5,067 nucleotides of DNA from Comamonadaceae bacterium (GTDB lineage: Bacteria; Pseudomonadota; Gammaproteobacteria; Burkholderiales; Burkholderiaceae): NCBI GenBank assembly GCA_947505995.1, contig CANNNB010000183.1, positions 1 through 5,067 on the forward strand, read 5' to 3'. A program made the translations under genes and the position numbers. Below are positions 924-3,621 of this stretch, piece by piece. Below the pieces are notes generated by a model. It worked only from the letters and a program-made list of their open reading frames with translations, had not been told where the DNA came from and did no database searches. The stretch's first letter is position 1. Each line of letters begins with the position of its first letter.

Positions 924-942
924 ACCCGAATGATAGCGGGCG

Positions 943-974
943 AAAAAAATGCCCCGGGCCTTGCGGCTCGGGGC
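943..974 (-). terminator. Rho-independent terminator on the minus strand, upstream of ilvA
   Basis: A 10-bp stem (951-960 with 965-974, one G-U pair) closes on the 4-nt loop 961-964. On the minus strand it is followed by A and then seven T residues (949-943). There is no T-run in the plus direction, so its orientation is minus. No protein gene on the minus strand lies upstream that it could end, since osmC is on the plus strand. It therefore ends a small RNA or acts as an attenuator in the ilvA leader. Confidence 0.8.
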
Positions 975-1043
975 AAATCCACCTTTTCGGAGGGTGGAGG
1001 AGACAAAAGGCTCGTGCTTGATGAGGTAAAAAAGCACGACTGT
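943..1043 (-). ncRNA. Candidate small RNA or ilvA leader with two anti-Shine-Dalgarno motifs in one loop
   Basis: A transcript starting at the promoter candidate 1049-1076 and ending in the T-tract 943-949 would be about 100 nt. It folds into three elements: a 7-bp hairpin CGTGCTT/AAGCACG (1013-1038, 12-nt loop); a CCUUUU/AAAAGG stem (1005-1010 with 982-987) whose 17-nt loop contains CCUCC twice (996-1000 and 989-993); and the terminator hairpin 951-974. An alternative UCCACC/GGUGGA stem (993-998 with 978-983) would hide the first CCUCC. CCUCC is the core of the 16S rRNA anti-Shine-Dalgarno, and CCUCC-loop small RNAs followed by a terminator are known from betaproteobacteria. From memory, the Rfam family 'Betaproteobacteria toxic small RNA' is of this kind; membership is unchecked. 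It could instead be the 5' leader of ilvA with an attenuator, since the terminator ends only 19 bases before the ilvA start. Structure is seen; function is inferred. Confidence 0.5.
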
Positions 1044-1048
1044 TCGAA

Positions 1049-1076
1049 ATTCTACATAAAAAATGTTGCAGTGCAA
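1049..1076 (-). promoter_or_regulatory. Candidate sigma-70 promoter driving the minus-strand RNA and possibly ilvA
   Basis: Reading on the minus strand, a -35-like TTGCAC (1076-1071) and a -10-like TAGAAT (1054-1049, five of six consensus bases) are separated by 16 bases. Transcription would start near 1043. The -35 half lies inside the palindrome 1064-1078, so a protein bound there would be expected to block this promoter. The -35 match is only moderate. Confidence 0.45.
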
Positions 1077-1078
1077 CA
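1064..1078. promoter_or_regulatory. Perfect 15-bp palindrome TGTTGCAGTGCAACA, operator-like
   Basis: Seven-base arms TGTTGCA and TGCAACA flank one central base (1071). It overlaps the -35 half of the minus-strand promoter candidate and lies 67 bases before the osmC start, so it could act on either gene. The TGC/GCA half-sites faintly recall the TGC-rich sites described for the polyhydroxyalkanoate regulator PhaR; this is a weak resemblance, not an identification. Confidence 0.45.
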
Positions 1079-1092
1079 GCTTTTCAAAAGCT
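1078..1092. promoter_or_regulatory. Second perfect 15-bp palindrome AGCTTTTCAAAAGCT abutting the first
   Basis: Seven-base arms AGCTTTT and AAAAGCT flank C1085. It shares base 1078 with the preceding palindrome; the two centres are 14 bp apart. It lies between the minus-strand promoter candidate and osmC. It could be a second operator or a small RNA hairpin; a 1-base centre is more typical of a protein-binding site. Confidence 0.35.
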
Positions 1093-2502: not shown

Positions 2503-3480
2503 ATGAAAAAATCCCTGATCGCATTGGCTGTTTTGGCCGCTTCTGGCGCCGCTATGGCCCAATCTGCTGTGACATTGTCTGGCTCTATCAGCGTTGGTGT
2601 TATGGACACTGGACTTGCTGGTGCAAAAGCTGCTGTTGCTTCTCTTGGTGGTGGCGCCAACGCCATTAACATCGCCAGTGTTGAAGACCTTGGTGGTGGC
2701 TTAAAAGGCGGTTTCGACGGCCAAATGCGTTTCAATGCATCTACTGGTGACCGCAACAGTGCTGGTACAGGCAATGCTTTGTTCCACAATGCAAACGCCT
2801 ACGTCAGTGGCGGTTTAGGCACAGTTCGTGTCGGTAAAATTGCCGAAGATGCAAACTGCGGCTTTGACCCCTGGGGTTGTACCGGCGGTGCTGGTCTGAT
2901 TGCAGGTGCTGCTGGTACCATCAGCGGATTGATTGCAGCACAAACACAGGCTTCTTCAGTTCGTTACGAGTCTACAAACCTCAGCGGTTTCACTGTTCGT
3001 TACCAAACCACTGTTTCAAGCCGTGCCTTTGAGCGCTCTGTTTTGAACCTGAGCTACGCTCAAGGTCCAGTTGCTGTTCAATTCTTGCAAAGCAAGAACA
3101 GCTTGAACGTTGGTGGTGATGTATCCGGTGCTGCAACTGCCTTTGCCGTTACCGATCTTCCTGGCAAGGGTACTTCTATTGGCGCAAGCTATGACTTGGG
3201 AGTTGCCAAGGTCGCCGTCTTCAATGCCAAGACAAACAACAACCTTGGCGTTACAACTGCCGACATCACTGGTTACTCAGCCTCCATCCCCATGGGCGCA
3301 ATCACTTTGTTGGCTGGTCTTAGCAAAGACAGCAAAAAAGCGACTACAGCTGACACCAAAATGGGTTTAGGCTTTAACTATGCTTTAAGCAAGCGTACAA
3401 CTTTGGGCGCTGACATGTTCAAGCAAGACGCAGTTGGTGGCGGCAGTGGTTTTGTGACACGCATTCGCCACACTTTCTAA
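2503..3480 (+). CDS. Outer-membrane trimeric-type general porin (Gram-negative porin family)
   Basis: The 325-residue product is an exported beta-barrel that lets small hydrophilic solutes cross the outer membrane. A typical signal peptide (Lys-Lys start, hydrophobic core, AMA before Q20) is followed by VTLSGSISVGV, the usual first strand of Neisseria/Burkholderia-type porins. Alternating strands continue (VEDLGGGLKGGFDGQMRF, GTVRVGK, SVRYESTNLSGFTVRYQTT) and the chain ends in IRHTF, the terminal phenylalanine being the barrel-assembly signal. Residues 113-150, where constriction loop L3 is expected, are rich in Gly and Ala and carry Cys119 and Cys126. It is somewhat shorter than many relatives. 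The start is fixed by GGAGAA (2489-2494), 8 bases before ATG. That site overlaps a small inverted repeat GAGAACTTCTC (2490-2500). Codons favour GGT, GCT and GTT, which suggests strong expression. It is transcribed alone, closed by a strong terminator. The substrate range cannot be told from sequence. Confidence 0.93.
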   Translation: MKKSLIALAVLAASGAAMAQSAVTLSGSISVGVMDTGLAGAKAAVASLGGGANAINIASVEDLGGGLKGGFDGQMRFNASTGDRNSAGTGNALFHNANAYVSGGLGTVRVGKIAEDANCGFDPWGCTGGAGLIAGAAGTISGLIAAQTQASSVRYESTNLSGFTVRYQTTVSSRAFERSVLNLSYAQGPVAVQFLQSKNSLNVGGDVSGAATAFAVTDLPGKGTSIGASYDLGVAKVAVFNAKTNNNLGVTTADITGYSASIPMGAITLLAGLSKDSKKATTADTKMGLGFNYALSKRTTLGADMFKQDAVGGGSGFVTRIRHTF

Positions 3481-3508: not shown

Positions 3509-3514
3509 AGAAAA

Positions 3515-3555
3515 TTAAAACCCCCGCAGTGGCAACACAGCGGGGGTTTTTAATT
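3515..3555 (+). terminator. Strong intrinsic terminator of the porin gene
   Basis: CCCCCGC (3521-3527) pairs with GCGGGGG (3540-3546) around a 12-base loop. The stem is extended by AAAA/TTTT (3517-3520 with 3547-3550), giving 11 pairs, and a T-rich tail follows. The A-run on the left side could make it work on the opposite strand as well. It separates the porin from the downstream binding-protein gene. Confidence 0.9.
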
Positions 3556-3621
3556 TCTAACTTTTAAATCCCTTTTCCAAAATAACGCAGTTCATTTGTG
3601 GCATATTTCAGTTGAAAGTAA

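Follow-up and report, generated by a model that had tools for sequence, protein, structure and literature searches.

An RF02278 small RNA gene between ilvA and osmC in a Limnohabitans-like Comamonadaceae bacterium, with a PhaR-type palindrome over its candidate promoter

The stretch of DNA analysed here, called the window throughout, is 5,067 nucleotides (nt) of contig CANNNB010000183.1 (assembly GCA_947505995.1). Its source is a Limnohabitans-like bacterium of the Comamonadaceae: the partial IlvA that it encodes shares 98% identity with the IlvA of a Limnohabitans metagenome-assembled genome (locus L001). Gene calls placed the start of ilvA at position 923 on the minus strand, osmC on the plus strand from about 1145, and coq7, whose product was identified as Coq7, on the minus strand at 1641-2306. 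The minus strand of the ilvA-osmC gap holds what its sequence identifies as an independent small RNA (sRNA) gene and a new member of the known Rfam family RF02278, with a predicted primary transcript of about 101 nt (943-1043) whose start we inferred from the -10 element described below.

A sequence-only reading had already proposed a ~100-nt CCUCC RNA resembling the 'toxic' sRNAs of betaproteobacteria at this place. We recovered every named element of it on the minus strand within 943-1043: CCUUUU (1010-1005), the 17-nt sequence GUCUCCUCCACCCUCCG (1004-988), AAAAGG (987-982), CCUCC twice (1000-996 and 993-989), and a terminator with its run of seven T (T7). The covariance search that it had suggested settled the family, as the segment 1005-944 matched the full RF02278 (Betaproteobacteria_toxic_sRNA) model, positions 1-64, with 56.6 bits (E 8.1e-10) against a gathering score of 50, and the RNA shows the pair of hairpins that characterizes this family, with an intrinsic terminator as its second member. 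Two other families were rejected by score. The anti-hemB RNA (RF02837) has a similar architecture and its model overlaps 1039-943, but with 29.6 bits against a cut-off of 49.5; NmsRb (RF02877) reached 23.1 bits against a cut-off of 52. The loop motif CCUCCUCCC, by which we take cuckoo RNAs to be defined, is missing, with CUCCUCCACCCUCC in its place in a comparison by eye. RF02278 matches were present in all 12 genomes of the named loci. Of 150 genomes sampled from the family, 126 had a match, which exceeded the cut-off in 104; of 150 sampled from the order, 98 had one, which exceeded the cut-off in 58. Each of the eight Limnohabitans-like genomes searched carries one copy. In genome G166 (locus L213) there are nine matches, including a pair separated by about 380 nt.

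The predicted 101-nt RNA (1043-943) folds with -38.6 kcal/mol (z -5.1), a stability beyond chance, since none of 200 shuffled sequences was equally stable. It forms three hairpins: a 5' hairpin at 1039-1012 (UCGUGCUU...AAGCACGA), belonging to the long form, of which alike stretches are visible, though uncounted, in close relatives; a middle hairpin at 998-978; and the terminator, a G+C-rich hairpin at 975-950 followed by seven U (943-949). The middle hairpin pairs UCCACC with GGUGGA (998-993 with 983-978) in the minimum-energy fold, the centroid and the Rfam structure alike, and none of these contains the CCUUUU/AAAAGG stem that had been drawn earlier. When both stems were tested over the same 20 offsets in 159 distinct relatives, all six pairs of UCCACC/GGUGGA were formed in 149 and all six of CCUUUU/AAAAGG in 26. 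The two CCUCC motifs thus do not share one 17-nt loop in the conserved fold, which splits the first between the 5' single strand and the stem and leaves the second, CU-rich site mostly within a 9-nt loop; nor does a switch between two stems survive, as the supposed rival at 978-998 is the widely conserved one. In an alignment of 42 sequences picked from the listed relatives, changes on both sides occurred at 9 of 14 pairs, and none of 500 shuffles reached any of five measures. This covariation lies mostly in the terminator (943-975), where all eight counted pairs were compensatory, with double changes at one of the six pairs of the UCCACC/GGUGGA helix. In the same alignment, eight of the ten columns of UGUCUCCUCC (996-1005) were invariant and the remaining two at least 90% conserved. 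A terminator scan of 700-1300 made a single call, the palindrome at 1078-1064 described below, and missed the real terminator, presumably owing to an A-C mismatch.

The locus resembles that of the S17 sRNA of Bordetella pertussis, which a preprint (PMC11722255) relates to RF02278 members. Because S17 also adjoins coq7, the window RNA is most simply read, from its setting, as a positional relative of S17. Of the 64 family loci that we checked, Coq7 was found at 59, and 58 of the 64 retained the order coq7-osmC-sRNA-ilvA. The preprint excerpts describe a sigma-A start, a 190-nt RNA that RNase E shortens to 67 nt, a dependence on Hfq, and targets that match C/U-rich single-stranded sites. S17 and its short form S17S share with the window RNA a 5' part rich in C and U with a terminator after it, the coq7 neighbourhood and a -35 element of the TTGCAY kind, and the RF02278 core at 944-1005 would be the counterpart of the processed short form. 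The near-invariant UGUCUCCUCC may hold the counterpart of Site 1, its extent being our estimate, from the conserved Site 1/Site 2 sequence of S17S (positions 2-28); the loop is shorter than in many relatives. The systems differ in the length of the long form (190 nt for S17L, about 101 nt predicted here), in the osmC and ilvA genes that flank the window sRNA, and in their control, which the excerpts describe for S17 through BvgAS and a repressor and not through PhaR.

Just upstream of the RNA lies a candidate promoter that the sequence-only reading did not mention. It consists of a -10 element TAGAAT (1049-1054, minus strand), conserved as a box in relatives, and a -35 element TTGCAC (1071-1076) separated from it by 16 nt; a sigma-70 promoter scan of 700-1300 called none at its threshold. 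The -35 element is overlapped by a palindrome, CTGTTGCACTGCAACAT (1063-1079, minus strand), whose perfect inner part TGTTGCACTGCAACA (1078-1064) fits TG[N]TGC[N]3GCAA, reported as the site of PhbF in Herbaspirillum. The whole palindrome agrees at 13 of 14 specified positions, with one mismatch, with YTKNTGCRNYGCANMAR, the consensus that has been deduced for Ralstonia eutropha PhaR, a sensor of stored polyhydroxybutyrate (PHB), and the region holds an exact TGNTGCNNNGCAA. The -35 element reported for S17, TTGCAT, would fit a half-site of this palindrome, judged from that reported hexamer.

The palindrome was conserved together with the sRNA. We scored 162 sRNA loci (53 of L001-L080, 57 of L096-L154, 51 of L155-L214, and the window), selected by a script that required TTGTCTCCTC, allowing no more than one mismatch, together with a T-run and a stretch resembling a stem, and that removed duplicates; the set thus excludes other RF02278 matches that failed the script, as well as weaker family and order matches. 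A palindrome scoring at least 12 of 14 lay within 150 nt upstream in 118 of these loci, some of them off-position (e.g. L001 and L134), in comparison with 3.0% of 1955 random 150-nt windows taken from these loci and with 4.9% of dinucleotide shuffles. Among the 118 palindrome-bearing relatives, 100 had a TANNNT box 15-18 nt past the -35 hexamer, as opposed to 7.8% when the downstream letters were shuffled. At locus L195 the palindrome begins 36 nt before the core (73 nt in the window), yet the box is kept at 17 nt, as should be the behaviour of a promoter element; the short loci L197 and L208, which resemble L195, had no such box.

We also determined whether PhaR is encoded, and where else its putative site occurs. 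The genomes searched for PhaR (PF07879) were a non-random set of 80, made up of the genomes of the named loci, order genomes that had supplied loci, family genomes whose palindrome was weak and some of the best-scoring family genomes. PhaR was found in 66, including the nearest relatives G001, G002 and G003. Among the 74 that could be scored, a match of at least 12 was present in 47 of 62 PhaR-positive and in 1 of 12 PhaR-negative genomes (Fisher p 1.7e-5, a value that is too small because the genomes share ancestry and the comparison is confounded by clade). An incomplete assembly can hide PhaR, as may be the case for G009 (1.8 Mb), where the score of a symmetrical palindrome is 11 and PhaR gave no match. 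Exact consensus palindromes numbered 10 in G007, 7 in G005 and 2 in G001, where the reversed pattern gave 0, 1 and 2, respectively; in G001 the exact pattern was therefore no commoner than its control. In both G007 and G005 the exact sites include one at the sRNA and another immediately upstream of a phasin gene. Matches of 12-13 of 14 precede the second phasin gene of both these genomes, the G001 phasin gene (two sites), and phaR in G001, G002, G005 and G007, so that in the Limnohabitans-like genomes examined the palindrome stands before phaR in four of four and before phasin genes in three of three (G001, G005, G007). Further exact sites, which may be due to chance, lie inside genes, such as that for IMP dehydrogenase, or before a potassium transporter gene. 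A perfect palindrome of the PhaR type is found at position 1501 of locus L227 (G007:C4:728632), some 90 nt upstream of a gene for a K+ transporter (K_trans).

Candidate targets were sought among start regions complementary to the C/U-rich part of the RNA. In eight genomes the 8-mer AGGAGACA occurred before ATG 312 times, in comparison with 114 for its permutation AGGAGAAC, a suggestive excess as measured against this single permuted control. The gene for PHB synthase, phaC, was represented by 33 loci (30 of 48 listed rows, together with L239-L241, in two of which, from G005 and G007, the match was first noticed), with starts chosen with a preference for Shine-Dalgarno codons; at least one start (L322) looks miscalled. 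GGAGAC was present in 21 and AGGAGACA in 15 of these 33 start regions. GGAGAC was found in 0 of 61 coq7 and 1 of 68 osmC start regions, of which only 7 and 26 had any GGAG. It was present in 7 of 23 phaB (seven of seven Limnohabitans-like, none of 16 others) and in 5 of 15 phaA start regions, from which matches under 45% identity had been dropped. The 33 do not include the second phaC copies (L242 and L243), near whose frame starts no AGGAGACA was seen. At the loci inspected (L290, L291, L292 and phaC loci L293-L322), phaC, and in Limnohabitans-like genomes phaB, often begins behind AGGAGACA, the complement of the first site of the sRNA. We regard a link of phaC and phaB to the sRNA as a hypothesis only, drawn from these matches.

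The explanation that we consider best, and hold to be probable, is that the window carries an RF02278/S17-related sRNA gene, most likely governed by PhaR, whose product blocks ribosome-binding sites; this last activity is assigned to the window RNA because of its family. According to this model, RNA polymerase would start near 1043 and stop at the terminator, and a cut of the RNase E type would probably leave the ~62-nt core, whose C/U-rich single strand UGUCUCCU would pair with ribosome-binding sites of the AGGAGACA type and block translation. In the lack of PHB, PhaR would occupy the palindrome over the -35 element and repress the sRNA; when PHB granules draw PhaR away, the sRNA would be made along with phasin, and would then damp carbon uptake and probably PHB synthesis too (phaC, phaB). 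A broader form of this model, in which many Burkholderiales RF02278/S17 RNAs belong to the PhaR regulon and a PHB-granule-gated anti-Shine-Dalgarno RNA lowers PHB synthase, PHB reductase and carbon-import mRNAs as a post-transcriptional feedback on storage, is put forward tentatively, at slightly less than even chances.

Several observations weigh against this model. At the nearest relative, L001, the palindrome is weakened to 11 of 14, and the locus counted among the 118 through another, off-position stretch. The chance expectation of such a match in the window alone is 0.28, and the case therefore rests on position and conservation. No palindrome of at least 12 was found for 15 of the 62 PhaR-positive genomes, and the genomes without a PhaR match are probably related among themselves. 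On the target side, the two G007 phaC regions scanned contained no match of at least 12, and the G001 phaC lacks GGAGAC. Perfect 9-nt Site 1 matches before ATG were not enriched (7, three of them the sRNA gene itself, in comparison with 10 rows, or 8 distinct sites, for the permuted control), and the duplex energies of phaC and phaB were ordinary, ranking at 7-45% among 55 start regions.

The same RF02278 sRNA might instead have its palindrome read by another regulator, for example through an operator shared with osmC, with no involvement of PHB. A shared operator is possible because osmC lies divergently upstream of the sRNA. This arrangement holds for 63 of 64 family loci, at distances of 102-480 nt, and for 24 of 43 order loci, at 79-1341 nt; another regulator would also accommodate the PhaR-encoding genomes without the palindrome. 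We nevertheless judge this unlikely, as the palindrome fits two published consensuses, those of PhaR and PhbF, and within this clade also stands upstream of the classic targets of PhaR, namely phaR itself and the phasin genes. As a separate observation, osmC shares its intergenic region (1064-1144) with the palindrome and might fall under its control too.

It could also be argued that the RNA is the 5' leader or attenuator of ilvA, with readthrough of the terminator controlling threonine dehydratase. The earlier statement that the terminator has no gene to end was right, but ilvA starts 19 nt past the T-run on the same strand, and it follows the sRNA on that strand in 62 of 64 family loci. We rejected this as the main explanation, and consider it very improbable, on the basis of locus order and of ilvA's own TATNAT box: the sRNA lies kilobases from ilvA at two family loci (L172 and L173), 42 of 43 order loci have no ilvA within the stretch covered, and ilvA tends to keep the box close to its start codon ATG whether the sRNA is nearby (31 of 34 loci) or absent from there (26 of 43), as counted without a shuffle control after 3 of 80 loci with too little upstream DNA were dropped. 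In the window this box is TATCAT (930-935, minus strand), which recurs in relatives and is a possible -10 element. Since it stands 6 nt before the ATG and no Shine-Dalgarno sequence is evident (921-935), the sequence suggests that ilvA has its own promoter and a leaderless or very short-leader mRNA. Least probable of all is a mainly toxin-like, growth-arresting RNA, as the family name and the attenuated growth of Burkholderia cenocepacia overexpressing ncS27 (PMC5688073) might imply, because the S17 preprint (PMC11722255) reports only a modest effect on entry into stationary phase and a conserved syntenic copy suits a housekeeping regulator.

Elsewhere in the window, a porin gene (2503-3480, plus strand) is followed on its 3' side by a strong G+C-rich hairpin flanked by T and A runs on both strands (3512-3556), probably a bidirectional terminator; Rfam matches there (ohsC, His leader) were weak and under the cut-off, and appear to mirror the hairpin alone. 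The gene from about 3622 (plus strand), which we take to be Bug/TctC-like, had no NCBIfam match for its product.

Two further systems bear comparison. The B. cenocepacia RNAs ncS03, ncS05, ncS27 and ncS62 share the RF02278 family and a double hairpin with the window RNA, although that species has four copies and the Limnohabitans-like genomes one each; as far as the excerpts of the report go (PMC5688073), the levels of ncS03, ncS05 and ncS27 go up in glucose medium, under starvation and in biofilms, and three of the four RNAs share an unspecified upstream motif (its Fig. S3). MmgR of Sinorhizobium meliloti is likewise described as a PHB-linked small RNA repressed by PhaR/AniA (PMC8401924, PMC12542648), but it belongs to the alphaproteobacterial r8 family, not RF02278, and its reported effect is on phasins. 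Among the matches listed in open-licence PMC papers, with supplements outside that scope, no report linked PhaR to RF02278. This proposed link is the new part of our analysis, although the common upstream motif of the B. cenocepacia RNAs could be the same element.

RF02278 RNAs are widespread, yet in the texts cited their regulation is called unknown (B. cenocepacia) or put down to an unidentified repressor (S17, whose promoter is independent of BvgA; PMC11722255), and a 2021 review excerpt calls the riboregulation of PHB synthesis in Cupriavidus necator undeciphered. If our model is true, PhaR becomes a candidate for the repressor postulated for S17. A PhaR operator would supply RF02278 RNAs with a concrete signal, stored PHB, and could explain when the window RNA is made.
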